From Pseudomonadales bacterium (lineage in GTDB: Bacteria; Pseudomonadota; Gammaproteobacteria; Pseudomonadales; Azotimanducaceae), in the NCBI GenBank assembly GCA_019090385.1, contig JAHRWB010000017.1, positions 1 to 64,000 on the forward strand: a stretch of DNA of 64,000 nucleotides. The letters run 5' to 3'. Shown one piece after another: positions 46,612 through 53,044 of the stretch. The first letter of the stretch is position 1, and the number at the start of each line of letters is the position of its first letter. The position numbers and the translations under genes were made by a program. The notes beneath the pieces were generated by a model. It made no database searches. It saw nothing but the letters and a program-made list of their open reading frames with translations, and was not told where the DNA came from.

Positions 46612-46639
46612 TTGCAATACACAGCAGTTGCCGTAATAT
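46612..46639 (+). promoter_or_regulatory. Sigma-70 promoter for the riboswitch transcript
   Basis: A -35 TTGCAA (46612-46617) and a -10 TAATAT (46634-46639) are separated by 16 bp. The inferred transcript would start near 46646, about 12 nt before the riboswitch. Confidence 0.6.
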
Positions 46640-46657
46640 TTCGTTCTGCACATTTTA

Positions 46658-46748
46658 TTTCCTGAGGGGCGGTCCCTTGGCTTATGCCATCGACCTGAGA
46701 AGCACCCTTTGAACCTGATCCGGATAGTACCGGCGGAGGGATAGGATT
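46658..46748 (+). promoter_or_regulatory. TPP riboswitch (THI element)
   Basis: The conserved cores are unmistakable: GAGGGGCGG at the 5' side, CTGAGAAGCACCC, then CCTTTGAACCTGATCCGGAT followed by AGTACCGGCGGAGGGATAGGA. TCCT (46660-46663) can pair with AGGA (46743-46746) to close P1. GGATAGGA near 46739 can alternatively pair with TCCTTATCC at 46768-46776, a possible expression switch. It sits directly upstream of the TonB receptor, which would be repressed when thiamine pyrophosphate is plentiful. Confidence 0.95.
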
Positions 46749-46816
46749 CAGTTTCTAGCTACCCCACTCCTTATCCGGGTCTCTTTAACCAGATGTATGT
46801 TAATGAGGCTCATAAC

Positions 46817-48976
46817 ATGAAGAATTTAATCCCCAGCTCCAGCTGGCTGGCCTACACCTTGGTAATGACCCTGCAAGCAACAGAAACCACCAGCTATGCG
46901 CAGGACCTAAGGCAAGATAACCCTGATCCAATAGAAGAGATTCTAGTAACAGCGGAATTCCGAGAACGTTCGCTATTAAAAACAGCCAATAGCACCAGCA
47001 TTCTCAGCGCTGATACCATAGCGCGCACCCGCGCCAGCCACCTGTCACAGCTGTTAAACCAGGCCCCAAACGTCAACTATGCCAGTGGAGCATCTCGTGG
47101 CCGTTTCATACAAATACGAGGCGTTGGTGAGCGTAGCCAATTCATCGAGCCACTTAATCCATCTGTTGGAATCCTTGTAGATGGCATGGACTTAAGTGGC
47201 TTAGGTGGTGCAGCAACTACGCTGGACCTGGCACAAGTGGAGATATTGAGAGGCCCACAAGGCACACTATTTGGTGCCAATGCATTGGCCGGCCTCATTC
47301 AAATGAAATCCAATGAACCAACATCAACGCTAACAGGAAATGTAGAAGCCAGTGTTGGCGATGATCAACTTCAGTCTATTGCCGGCGTTATAAGCGGTCC
47401 GCTTTCAGAATCGGCAGGGTATCGCCTGGCTATCCTAAACCACCGCTCTGATGGGCATATACGCAATACCTTCCTCAATCGAGACGATAGTAATAATTTG
47501 GATGAGCTCAGTGCCCGAGGCAAACTAAACTGGCAGGCAAATGAAGGCCTTTCCTTCAGCGCGACCGGATATGTCATCGACATAGACAACGGTTATGACG
47601 CATTTTCATTGGACAACACCCGCTCTACTTTGTCAGACCAACCTGGCTATGATCGCCAAAAAAGCTGGGCTCTGTCATTGAACAGCCATTGGAGTGCAAA
47701 CCCAAACTTTGATGTTGTCGGCCAATTCAGCATTGTAGAAAGTGATTTGGCCTACGCTTTTGACGAAGATTGGAGTTTCAGTGATATATGTGCTGGCACA
47801 CTTTGTGATGGCTGGGCCTATTCATCTTTTGACAGTTATGAACGCGATCACTCAAACACCAGTATTGATATCCGCATGATCTCCAACCAGGACCTTAACC
47901 TGTTTAGCTATTCAACTGCCTGGGTAGTGGGTGCCTATGCACGCAACGAAAATGTGGATCTGACCCGAGAATACACTTTCGCCAGCCAGGATTTTCTGAG
48001 CGACTATGATACACATAACCAGGCTATCTACACCCAGCTCGATGCCCAACTCTCCGATACTTTCAACCTGTCCGGTGGGTTACGATTAGAGCGGCGCAGT
48101 GCCAAATACGATGATAACAATACCGTCTCCCATGAAAATACAGACTATTTCTGGGGTGCACATTTGACACTTGAATACCATACTGACGACAATAAATTGT
48201 TATACGGTAAGGTCTCCCGAGGTTATAAAGCGGGCGGCGTAAACAGTAACCCCGACCTGAGCACATCATTCAGAAAATTTGAAGAAGAGCGAATGTGGAA
48301 TCTTGAAGCAGGATTGAAGGGCGAGTACTTTGATGACAAGCTACAAACTCAAATCTCCATTTTTTACCAGTTTCGCAGAGATATGCAGGTTAAACAGTCT
48401 TTGCTCGAACCCATCTCCGGGGATAGCTGTCCCTGCAGTTTTGAAGATTTCCTAAGCAATGCTGCAAAAGCTTCAAACTACGGAATGGAGCTGGAGGTGA
48501 ATTGGTCAGCAAACGAAATTTTGCATCTGTATGGTAGCCTGGGCTTGCTCGAAGCCGAGTTTAATCGATTCGAAAGTTTCTCCCATGTTGATGCCAATCC
48601 CATAACCGGCCAGCCCGTCAACCTCGATGGCCGCAAACAGGCCCATGCACCCAGGTACCAGTTTGCCTTTGGCAGCGAATTGCGCGTACGTGAAAACCTG
48701 GCTCTGTTCGTAGAGCTGGAAGGTAAAGATAAATTCAAGCTTTCTACCCGTCATGAGGAGCAGAGCCGTTCATATACTTTGCTAAATGCCAGCATAACTT
48801 ACTACCCGGAACATTGGGAAATATCTTTGTGGGGACGAAACCTAGGCAACAAAAAGGTAATCGAACGCGGATTTGGCAGTTTTGGAAACGACCCACGCAA
48901 GTTCTATACAACCGAACCCTATTACCAGTACGGGGCACCACGTGTGCTTGGCGTATCCGCCAAATACACCTTCTAA
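46817..48976 (+). CDS. TonB-dependent outer-membrane receptor, probable thiamine transporter
   Basis: A 719-residue gated porin. The ATG at 46817 has TGAGG 8 nt upstream and gives a signal peptide (MKNLIPSSSWLAYTLVMTLQ); an upstream ATG at 46793 is less likely. A TonB-box-like IEEILVTAEFRER precedes the plug (IRGVGERSQFIEPLNPSVGI, EILRGPQGTLFGANALAG), then a barrel ending in the terminal Phe of LGVSAKYTF. The TPP riboswitch upstream implies that the ligand is thiamine or a precursor; TonB receptors under THI elements have been proposed before as thiamine transporters. No other thiamine gene is nearby. Confidence 0.93.
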   Translation: MKNLIPSSSWLAYTLVMTLQATETTSYAQDLRQDNPDPIEEILVTAEFRERSLLKTANSTSILSADTIARTRASHLSQLLNQAPNVNYASGASRGRFIQIRGVGERSQFIEPLNPSVGILVDGMDLSGLGGAATTLDLAQVEILRGPQGTLFGANALAGLIQMKSNEPTSTLTGNVEASVGDDQLQSIAGVISGPLSESAGYRLAILNHRSDGHIRNTFLNRDDSNNLDELSARGKLNWQANEGLSFSATGYVIDIDNGYDAFSLDNTRSTLSDQPGYDRQKSWALSLNSHWSANPNFDVVGQFSIVESDLAYAFDEDWSFSDICAGTLCDGWAYSSFDSYERDHSNTSIDIRMISNQDLNLFSYSTAWVVGAYARNENVDLTREYTFASQDFLSDYDTHNQAIYTQLDAQLSDTFNLSGGLRLERRSAKYDDNNTVSHENTDYFWGAHLTLEYHTDDNKLLYGKVSRGYKAGGVNSNPDLSTSFRKFEEERMWNLEAGLKGEYFDDKLQTQISIFYQFRRDMQVKQSLLEPISGDSCPCSFEDFLSNAAKASNYGMELEVNWSANEILHLYGSLGLLEAEFNRFESFSHVDANPITGQPVNLDGRKQAHAPRYQFAFGSELRVRENLALFVELEGKDKFKLSTRHEEQSRSYTLLNASITYYPEHWEISLWGRNLGNKKVIERGFGSFGNDPRKFYTTEPYYQYGAPRVLGVSAKYTF

Positions 48977-49002: not shown

Positions 49003-50349
49003 CTAATCAACCATTTTTGCAGGGGCTAACAATTCAATCCAGTGTTTCACCGGCACCCGGGTGCCGGACTGGATATGTGACTGACATCCAATGTTTCCAG
49101 TTACTATAAAATCAGGGTCATGCTCTGACAAGGCAGCCAATTTATTGTCTCTAAGCTTAAAGCTCAGTTCCGGCTCGAGAATGGAGTAAGTCCCGGCTGA
49201 ACCACAACATAAATGACTATCTCTACAGCTGAGCAATTCATACCCAGCCCTTTCCAGCAATTGCTCCACAGTCGAAGTTATTTTTTGACCATGTTGTAAT
49301 GTACAAGGCGACTGCCACGCGATTCGCCGGGTTCCAAATCTGGCAGTAAAATCTATATCCAGCGAGCTAAGGTATTCAGATACATCTAGCACCTTGCTCG
49401 AAAGGTAGGTAGCCAGACCTGCGTGATGAGAGCTATCTTTAAGCAGCCTGTCAAAATCTTTCACGGTAACCCCACAACCACTTGCAGTGGAAATAATGGC
49501 ATCGACTTTGGCGAATTTATAGGCTGCAAATTTATCCCCCGCATTGTTTGTATTCGAGCCAGACATAGCGAAAATAGTCTCTCCAGAACGAGTTTCCGCA
49601 GCATAGGAAGATTCTGGTAAAGCATCCAGAACCTGAGTGAGAGAATCAACCAGCGTCGACATAGTCTGGGTAGCCTGCTGCATTTCACCCAAGTGAAGTG
49701 CTAGCGAACCACAGCAACCACCAACCGCAATAGCCTCTATGCCAACGCTGCCGAGCAACTCCGTCAACCAATAATTTACCTGAGGTGTAACCACACTCTG
49801 CACACAACCGGTAAGCAAAATAACCTTTTTCCCATGTCCATTCGCTGACAGGTCGACAATATGTTTTTTTTCAATACGCTTTTTACCAACACGCGGTAAC
49901 GCCCCTCGTAGCTTGCTCGGCAACAACCATCGCACAGTACCAGCCAGACGTAACAATACGCGCATCCGTTTTGCATGAGGCACAACATGTAACAACCAGG
50001 TTCTGATAAAGCGATTTTTAAAACTTCTTTTTGTTTTTGGCTGAATTATTTCTCGGCCAATTTCCAATAATTCGCCGTATGCAACACCCGAAGGGCAGGT
50101 TGTCTCGCAAGCGCGACAAGTCAAACATCGGTCAAGGTGTTTTCCAATAACATCGCCCACCACGTTATCTTCCAATACCTGCTTAATGAGGTAAATCCTG
50201 CCTCTCGGACCATCCAGCTCATTACCTAACAGTTGATAAGTGGGGCAAGTTGCATTACAGAACCCACAATGCACACATGAGCGCAAAATTTCTTCCGCCC
50301 GCGTTCCATTCTTCGTATTGGAAAATTCGGATGCTATATGTGTTTCCAC
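49003..50349 (-). CDS. glcF: Glycolate oxidase iron-sulfur subunit
   Basis: A 448-residue protein with two 4Fe-4S motifs, CVHCGFCNATCP and CLTCRACETTCP, and two Cys-rich CCG domains (VGGCCGSLAL and HLCCGSAGTYS). With GlcD and GlcE it oxidises glycolate to glyoxylate, feeding electrons to quinone. It shares one nucleotide with glcE, so the set is translationally coupled. It is somewhat longer than the E. coli protein (407). Confidence 0.95.
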   Translation of the reverse strand: METHIASEFSNTKNGTRAEEILRSCVHCGFCNATCPTYQLLGNELDGPRGRIYLIKQVLEDNVVGDVIGKHLDRCLTCRACETTCPSGVAYGELLEIGREIIQPKTKRSFKNRFIRTWLLHVVPHAKRMRVLLRLAGTVRWLLPSKLRGALPRVGKKRIEKKHIVDLSANGHGKKVILLTGCVQSVVTPQVNYWLTELLGSVGIEAIAVGGCCGSLALHLGEMQQATQTMSTLVDSLTQVLDALPESSYAAETRSGETIFAMSGSNTNNAGDKFAAYKFAKVDAIISTASGCGVTVKDFDRLLKDSSHHAGLATYLSSKVLDVSEYLSSLDIDFTARFGTRRIAWQSPCTLQHGQKITSTVEQLLERAGYELLSCRDSHLCCGSAGTYSILEPELSFKLRDNKLAALSEHDPDFIVTGNIGCQSHIQSGTRVPVKHWIELLAPAKMVD

Positions 50350-51449
50350 TAAAACTCCCGATACATAATATTTGTGTTTAGTATGCCAGCAGGATCAAAG
50401 GCCTTTTTTATTCGCATATGGTATTTCATAATTTCCGGGCTAAGTTTGGATATATACAACTGCTCAGCGCTTTGGGCAGCATAAGCATCGTCAGAATATG
50501 TTGGATAACAACGGACACTGCCACCTGACTCATTGGCACTTAATAATATGCGCTGTATTTGAATTTTATTTTTTACCTCTGTTTTCAACCATCTCAGTGA
50601 GCCGGCCCATTCGGTCATCCACTCACCCGGTAGGTCAGGATATTTTGCTGCGGCAGGAACACTGAAACGCCATACGGTGTTTCCTGTAAAAAATTTGTGC
50701 TTGTGGTCCCTGATACCCGTCCAAAAACTGGCACCATTTTCAATTTTATGACCACCAATTTTTTTGATAGCACGCAACAAACCTGCTTCACTGCCAGATA
50801 AACGAATATAAAGTCCATTCTCATAATGACTGGTGGCCGTCACCGGATTCGCAGAGCGCATTAACTGCAACACATAGTCCAGTGCCGCATCCCGGTCGAG
50901 TTCAAGTCTGATCGTTTCAGTATGAACCGGACTCGGTAAAAGTCGCACGCTGGCACTCAATATCAGCCCTAAAGTCCCAAAGGAACCGGTCATGAGACGA
51001 GTCACATCGTAACCAGCAACATTTTTTAATACCTTGCCGCCAAATTTTAGTCGTTGACCCATACCATTTATGATTTCCATACCCAGAGCAGCATCTCTTG
51101 CTGAACCCAACCAAGCCCTGCCAGGTCCAGAAAGCCCACTGGCCAGTGCCCCGCCCAATGTACCCAAACCATTATATTGTGGAGGATCAAAGGGCAAAAA
51201 CTGGTTATGGCTGGCTAATGCGCTACTCAATTCATCCAGACGAGTTCCCGCCCGCGCGGTTATCACCAGTTCCTCCGGCCTATAATCCAGTATGCCCCGG
51301 TGTTCCACTACCGATAGAATATCGCCCTTTACCTCCTTTCCCAGAAATTTTTTGCTGCCTGTCCCACACAGACAAAGCGCGCATTTCTTTTCGTACGCCT
51401 CAACTAGCGCACCGACCAGCCGTGCAGAATCGTCATATTCCTGCATCAA
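50349..51449 (-). CDS. glcE: Glycolate oxidase FAD-binding subunit GlcE
   Basis: A 366-residue FAD_binding_4-type subunit. PPQYNGLGTLGGALASGLSG and GRAWLGSARDAALGMEIING are its flavin-binding motifs. It lacks the larger catalytic C-terminus of GlcD, as usual for GlcE. The ATG overlaps the glcD TGA (ATGA) and its stop overlaps glcF. Confidence 0.95.
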   Translation of the reverse strand: MMQEYDDSARLVGALVEAYEKKCALCLCGTGSKKFLGKEVKGDILSVVEHRGILDYRPEELVITARAGTRLDELSSALASHNQFLPFDPPQYNGLGTLGGALASGLSGPGRAWLGSARDAALGMEIINGMGQRLKFGGKVLKNVAGYDVTRLMTGSFGTLGLILSASVRLLPSPVHTETIRLELDRDAALDYVLQLMRSANPVTATSHYENGLYIRLSGSEAGLLRAIKKIGGHKIENGASFWTGIRDHKHKFFTGNTVWRFSVPAAAKYPDLPGEWMTEWAGSLRWLKTEVKNKIQIQRILLSANESGGSVRCYPTYSDDAYAAQSAEQLYISKLSPEIMKYHMRIKKAFDPAGILNTNIMYREF

Positions 51450-52900
51450 AATCTTTCCAGTTCAGGAAAAGGTAATACACCGCCGTGCACGTGCATGCCA
51501 CCCAGCTCAGAGCAGCGGCTTAGAGTTGGAATAGCTTTACCAGGATTTAACAGACTTTTTTCATCAAATGCTGCTTTGATGCGATGAAACTGTTCAATTT
51601 CCAGCGGGGAAAACTGCACACACATCTGATCCAGTTTTTCTATACCCACACCATGCTCACCTGTAATCGTGCCCCCTACAGCAACGCAGTACTCCAATAT
51701 TTTGCCCCCCATTTCCTCCGTTTGTTTCAACTGCCCCTCTATATTTGCATCATATAAAATAAGTGGATGCAAATTCCCATCGCCGGCATGAAACACGTTA
51801 GCCACCGCTAGATCGTATTTTTTAGACAGCGCAGCAATTTCACCTAATACCCGGCCCAGTGCGCTACGTGGAATCGTCCCATCCATGCAATAGTAATCCG
51901 GTTGAATTCGACCCACAGCAGGAAAAGCGGATTTACGCCCTTTCCACATCAACTCCCGTTCTTCGTTGTCCTTGGACTCCAACACCTGATAAGCACCATG
52001 GCGCAGCATCACCTCTCGCGCCAACTTACTGTCTACGTCTACATCTTCGGCATTCCCATCCAGCTCACAAAGCAAAATCGCTTGCGCGTCCACTGGATAC
52101 CCTGCATGCACAAATTGCTCTGCCGCTTCAATGGCCAATTTGTCCATCATTTCCATTCCCGCAGGAATAATGCCCTCGGCAATAACCCGGCTAACAGCAT
52201 TACCCGCCTGTTCCACGCTGTTAAATGCCCCGAGTAAAAGTTGTTTCACTGGCGGTATTGGCAACAAACGGACAATTACCTCGGTAACCACGCCCAACAT
52301 ACCTTCCGAACCTATCATCAATGCCAGTAAATCATAGCCCGGACTATCCAGCACCATACCACCTAACTTGAGTTCTTCACCTTCAATGGTGAGCACCGTC
52401 AGGCCGATGACATTGTGCACTGTCAAGCCATACTTAAGACAATGTACCCCGCCAGCATTTTCAGCCACATTGCCGCCAATGCTGCAGGCAATCTGGGAAG
52501 AAGGATCCGGGGCATAGTACAATCCATACCCGGCTGCCATTTCACTAATAGCTAAATTCCGCACACCCGGCTCAACACGCGCAATGCAATTATCAACGTC
52601 AATCTCAATGATGCGATCAAACCGGGACATCACCAGTAGAACGCCATCTTCCAATGGCCGTGCACCGCCGGATAAACCTGTCCCGGCTCCCCGTAATACA
52701 ATAGGCGTTTCGGTTGCTCGACAAGCGCTGAGTATACTCAAAAGCTGTTTACGACTGGTCGGTAACAAAACCAGTCCAGGCACTTGTTTAATCGCGGTAA
52801 GCCCATCGCTTTCGAAGGGCTTCCTGGCTTCTTCTCGTGTCAAAATTGCATCAGCAGGCAACACGGATTTTAAAATCGGTAGCAACTCAGTAGAAATCAT
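51446..52900 (-). CDS. glcD: Glycolate oxidase catalytic subunit GlcD
   Basis: A 484-residue FAD-linked oxidase, close to the 499 of E. coli. The flavin motif is VLRGAGTGLSGGARPLEDGV, followed by GGNVAENAGGVHCLKYGLTV; the C-terminal substrate domain contains NVFHAGDGNLHPLI and ITGEHGVGIEKLDQM. It is the first gene of glcD-glcE-glcF. No GlcC-type regulator is visible nearby. Confidence 0.96.
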   Translation of the reverse strand: MISTELLPILKSVLPADAILTREEARKPFESDGLTAIKQVPGLVLLPTSRKQLLSILSACRATETPIVLRGAGTGLSGGARPLEDGVLLVMSRFDRIIEIDVDNCIARVEPGVRNLAISEMAAGYGLYYAPDPSSQIACSIGGNVAENAGGVHCLKYGLTVHNVIGLTVLTIEGEELKLGGMVLDSPGYDLLALMIGSEGMLGVVTEVIVRLLPIPPVKQLLLGAFNSVEQAGNAVSRVIAEGIIPAGMEMMDKLAIEAAEQFVHAGYPVDAQAILLCELDGNAEDVDVDSKLAREVMLRHGAYQVLESKDNEERELMWKGRKSAFPAVGRIQPDYYCMDGTIPRSALGRVLGEIAALSKKYDLAVANVFHAGDGNLHPLILYDANIEGQLKQTEEMGGKILEYCVAVGGTITGEHGVGIEKLDQMCVQFSPLEIEQFHRIKAAFDEKSLLNPGKAIPTLSRCSELGGMHVHGGVLPFPELERF

Positions 52901-53044
52901 ATTCTCGGGACATTAGCTAGTTCGTATACTTTACCGGCAGAGTTATAACATATTGATATAGAATATGACTGTGCCGGAGATAAAAATACCCGTCAGATTA
53001 GCTTCAGCACGACCACCCAACGCATGCTATCAGGAGTAGTACAC

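Follow-up and report, generated by a model that had tools for sequence, protein, structure and literature searches.

A TPP riboswitch upstream of a TonB-dependent receptor in a predicted vitamin B1 auxotroph

A TonB-dependent receptor gene located just behind a TPP riboswitch raises two questions: what does the receptor import, and how would the riboswitch control its synthesis? We analysed such a locus in a 64-kb stretch of DNA (hereafter the window), searched the genome to which it belongs (3.57 Mb in 229 contigs, 99.35% complete) and compared 151 genomes of the same family. The reading that we favour, with a probability of about 0.85, is that the riboswitch controls translation of a receptor importing intact B1, as thiamine or thiamine phosphate, in a predicted B1 auxotroph.

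The riboswitch and the receptor gene

The original prediction had recognized the conserved cores of a TPP riboswitch and proposed a covariance search with the Rfam TPP model. This search (cmscan) gave a full-length match to RF00059 at 46655-46758 on the plus strand, covering model positions 1-105 with a score of 69.2 bits (E 1.6e-11) against a gathering score of 54.3 bits, which confirms that the riboswitch is real. The element is the sole Rfam match in the window and the single TPP match in the whole genome. Judged by its sequence, it would respond to TPP. A point against our reading is that, for the TPP-linked OMthi and pnuT of B. thetaiotaomicron, expression was reported to be barely altered by thiamine (PMC5613172).

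The downstream open reading frame, called mechanically at 46793-48976 on the plus strand (727 aa), carries a TonB plug domain (PF07715, E 1.2e-16) and a TonB-dependent beta-barrel domain (PF00593, E 4e-33). The ATG at 46817 is likely a better start than 46793, since it is preceded by GAGG at 46805-46808 and opens a signal-peptide-like N-terminus starting MKNLIPSSSW. By eye, the N-terminus shows a MKNLIPSSSWLAYTLVMTLQA start and an IEEILVTAE motif, candidates for a signal peptide and a TonB-box-like segment; for the motif, the receptor alignment gives the consensus IEEIVVTA. Transport through the receptor is presumed to be TonB-dependent. A structural model built from 28 homologues is a beta-barrel with a mean pLDDT of 79 and a pTM of 0.83. 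Its closest PDB fold is FyuA (4epa; TM-score 0.74/0.83, 20% identity), with further matches to other siderophore receptors and PqqU, and the nearest solved relatives by sequence are likewise siderophore receptors, FyuA foremost. The fold match shows what type of transporter this is and says nothing on its ligand. Collectively, the plug and barrel domains, the beta-barrel model and the orthologues found behind TPP riboswitches identify the gene at 46817-48976 (plus strand) as a TonB-dependent outer-membrane receptor, Omr1/OMthi-like by context.

The neighbours of the riboswitch-receptor unit, a GNAT acetyltransferase and glcFED (49003-52900, minus strand), lie on the opposite strand; on the plus strand, the first gene of any size beyond the receptor begins at 53024. 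From this arrangement of its flanks, the receptor gene is apparently transcribed as a unit of its own, and for that unit the earlier claim that it is the only downstream gene on its strand holds. The adjoining glcF, glcE and glcD are consecutive and encode glycolate oxidase subunits; the same glc neighbours are retained in the congener OFTM202 (L002).

The "good sigma-70 promoter" that had been proposed just upstream fared less well. The best upstream sites, including TTGCAA-16-TAATAT from 46612, score 8/12, below the scanner threshold of 9/12, and 224 of 580 stretches of 50 bp within the window (39%) contain an equal or better site. The site at 46612 was rejected as no better than the window background; a promoter near this position may exist, though the sequence gives no demonstration of it.

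A predicted translational switch in the leader

No intrinsic terminator was detected on the plus strand between the aptamer and the start codon, and translational control is therefore the preferred mode. To this effect, ViennaRNA predicts two alternative arrangements of the leader. When the aptamer is enforced, GGGUCUC at 46777-46783 pairs with GAGGCUC at 46805-46811, a segment that contains the Shine-Dalgarno GAGG (46805-46808) and forms the second arm of the predicted sequestering hairpin; the tested Shine-Dalgarno bases are then at most 3% unpaired. When the aptamer is not enforced, the anti-Shine-Dalgarno segment is captured in an 11-bp helix between 46771-46781 and its predicted partner within the aptamer, GATCCGGATAG at 46717-46727. 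The Shine-Dalgarno sequence is still partly inside a small hairpin in this free-state fold.

The anti-Shine-Dalgarno arm lies within the CCGGGUCUC element (46775-46783), which also takes part in the alternative helix and recurs in related leaders. An element of the CCGGGUCUY type is present in 27 of the 52 leaders examined, and in 19 of these 27 it pairs 7/7 with the Shine-Dalgarno region. The pairing-preserving variation in this helix is one-sided (U-A/U-G, G-U/G-C and C-G/U-G), and no compensatory double change was seen in the helix core among the leaders compared. In a shuffle test of broader scope, a helix pairing with the Shine-Dalgarno sequence reached p < 0.05 in 16 of 43 leaders, the window's own leader giving p 0.097. 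Covariation of the alternative helix is weak: in 17 of 27 leaders the base beside CCGG is paired, and for further bases this is less often so.

The folding model thus predicts that the conserved CCGGGUCUC element pairs with the Shine-Dalgarno sequence and that TPP represses translation, as in E. coli thiC, by a switch that would operate between the two leader folds. At high cytoplasmic TPP, the ligand would stabilize the aptamer, GGGUCUC (46777-46783) would fold onto GAGGCUC (46805-46811), hiding the ribosome-binding site, and the receptor would be off. At low TPP, the UUAUCCGGGUC segment (46771-46781) would pair with the aptamer arm (46717-46727) and free the ribosome-binding site. The E. coli thiC riboswitch similarly hides the ribosome-binding site in its TPP-bound fold, and an alternative pairing in the free state prevents this sequestration (PMC5234074). 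It differs in that the window element controls a transporter and that the alternative helix of the latter, a predicted fold only, uses the GAUCCGGAUAG arm.

Import versus synthesis of B1 in the genome and its family

Four biosynthetic enzymes are apparently absent from the genome. Neither ThiC nor ThiE (TMP synthase) was detected, although, among 14 control genomes, the ThiC search was positive in 13 and the ThiE search in 11. Searches for ThiG and ThiD gave only weak matches, which were rejected as other enzymes, namely a nitronate monooxygenase/FabK-like protein, an FMN-dependent dehydrogenase, HldE and an NAD(P)H-hydrate dehydratase. On the other hand, ThiL (TMP kinase) is present, with 278 bits. 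In a draft genome any single gene could be on a missing contig, but it is unlikely that all four were lost that way. Since ThiL is kept while ThiC, ThiE, ThiG and ThiD are not found, the organism is predicted from its gene content to be a B1 auxotroph needing intact thiamine or thiamine phosphate, and not the pyrimidine or thiazole precursors.

The same locus was then placed in its family context. Among the 151 genomes, 129 have a TPP match, 115 a strong receptor homologue and 22 thiC. The TPP element lies directly upstream of the receptor in 106 genomes, a median of 118 nt before the point where the match begins, and upstream of thiC in 17, both arrangements occurring together in one genome only, G150. 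The TPP-receptor thus replaces TPP-thiC across the family, and the two are nearly mutually exclusive (Fisher p 2.6e-12, for genomes that are partly non-independent phylogenetically). Because the genomes are related, states were also shuffled within genera, using all genomes of the four genera that hold both states, and an overlap this low arose in 25 of 200,000 shuffles. The conserved placement behind a TPP riboswitch that marks OMthi/Omr1-type receptors extends outside the family to Idiomarina, where receptor homologues 37-39% identical likewise carry the element; a laboratory strain of this genus has the gene order TPP-receptor-PnuT-kinase.

The single genome holding both arrangements, G150 (C77, L087, and C84, L123), could represent an intermediate between the two strategies. 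A further 13 TPP elements were classed as "other": several are at contig ends, and the rest include those of genus g35 and of G004. In g35 (L097, L098, L099, L102, L104), a second, weaker element of 49-53 bits precedes a cluster of the thiD-thiO-thiS-thiG-thiE-tenA type, its genes being named by eye from translations; a g35 genome, which is without thiC, is a predicted HMP auxotroph within the same family. In G004 (L101:977-2194), a second element lies ahead of the gene for a ThiB-like binding protein. The contig, of 3.3 kb, may be foreign, since this genome is listed at 6% contamination.

Genes adjoining the receptor in relatives provide a useful pointer to its substrate, since a PnuT and ThiK-like kinase operon is conserved there. 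A PF04973 transporter follows the receptor on its 3' side in 37 genomes, and the receptor-linked PF04973 proteins examined form a clade apart from PnuC-like proteins (support 100/100), as expected if they are PnuT. Behind several of these genes comes one for an APH-family kinase, whose match to the thiamine kinase model is well under the curated cut-off of that model. This pair is seen beside the receptor in some relatives and neither member was found in the window's genome. In the same count, 75 of 112 receptor genomes have no adjacent PnuT, so a solitary receptor is common.

The genome of the window does encode a single PF04973 protein (G000:C22, L113:7128-8344). This gene was rejected as PnuT: the protein is PnuC-like, groups with PnuC-like proteins of genomes that have thiC and is encoded directly before a NadR-like kinase. 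The two genes are likely a pair for nicotinamide riboside uptake and phosphorylation.

The probable substrate and known systems

The original prediction had left the choice between thiamine and a precursor. Its first half is sustained by the TPP-linked receptor in 106 of 151 genomes, the missing biosynthesis genes and the PnuT and ThiK-like neighbours, and we infer that the substrate of the receptor is intact B1; its second half is unlikely, given the lack of a detectable ThiE. Against import of intact B1 stands the fact that the searches run in this genome located neither an inner-membrane carrier nor a thiamine kinase: no ThiK-like kinase was found at E 1e-10, and a chimeric ThiB+ThiK+TenA query, used without a positive control, had no match.

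These gaps bear on the form in which B1 would enter. The ligand could be a thiamine phosphate (TMP or TPP), with TPP synthesis entered at ThiL and no thiamine kinase, which would suit a genome that has ThiL and in which neither ThiE nor a ThiK-like kinase was found. We consider this version possible but rather unlikely, as the kinase searches left out thiamine pyrophosphokinase, the chimeric query had no positive control, and the ThiK-like kinase adjoining the receptor in relatives implies free thiamine there. A more specific scheme, in which thiamine phosphates taken in by the receptor cross the inner membrane through a carrier outside the PnuT and ThiBPQ types and enter at ThiL without a dedicated thiamine kinase, is somewhat less likely again.

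It is improbable that the receptor takes in a precursor or breakdown product such as HMP or thiazole alcohol. Genus g35 would fit such a role, since it combines the TPP-linked thi cluster with a TPP-receptor, lacks thiC and needs a source of HMP. In the window's genome, though, no ThiE, ThiD or ThiG was detected and precursors could not be assembled; in particular, without a TMP synthase the cell could not couple HMP or thiazole brought in from outside. The ThiK-like kinases adjoining the receptor in several relatives also argue against it. Finally, import of iron siderophores or another ligand beside a coincidental riboswitch is very improbable: siderophore receptors, with FyuA first, come nearest among solved structures in both sequence and fold, but this fold match is generic, at 20% identity, whereas the TPP-receptor linkage recurs in 106 family genomes and Idiomarina and is complementary to thiC.

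Uptake of intact B1 thus remains the preferred reading, and the arrangement behind it is already known from TPP-regulated OMthi/Omr1 receptors, of which this locus is a well-supported further example. TPP-linked receptors have been described before: omr from metagenomes of ocean and soil (PMC2211319), omr1 of SAR86 and Flavobacteriales, where a riboswitch lies close by (PMC10881298), and omr1 expressed by Cellvibrionales, which are reported to be B1 auxotrophs without thiE (PMC12442306); the specificity of the omr1 receptor was regarded as unclear in the latter work. By gene context, the window's receptor resembles these omr/Omr1 receptors of marine bacterioplankton, whose genes neighbour a TPP (THI) element in gammaproteobacteria and Bacteroidetes that are auxotrophic for B1, and differs from them in belonging, as far as can be told, to another gammaproteobacterial lineage. 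A similar likeness by context links it to OMthi (BT2390) with pnuT-tnr3 of B. thetaiotaomicron, a TPP-riboswitch-linked TonB-dependent thiamine receptor; OMthi with PnuT is described as TPP-linked in Bacteroides, PnuT being the inner-membrane partner in many genomes (PMC5613172). B. thetaiotaomicron, however, also makes thiamine, whereas the window organism has apparently lost biosynthesis and has the receptor alone, without PnuT. FyuA, the ferric-yersiniabactin receptor, is the nearest solved fold but has a siderophore ligand. To these known systems, our analysis adds the near-exclusive distribution relative to thiC, the shared element predicted to sequester the Shine-Dalgarno sequence and the operon evidence on the substrate. 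What makes the locus a clean case is that a single riboswitch constitutes the entire TPP regulon detected in a predicted B1 auxotroph, within a family in which synthesis of B1 (TPP-thiC) and its import (TPP-receptor) nearly exclude each other.
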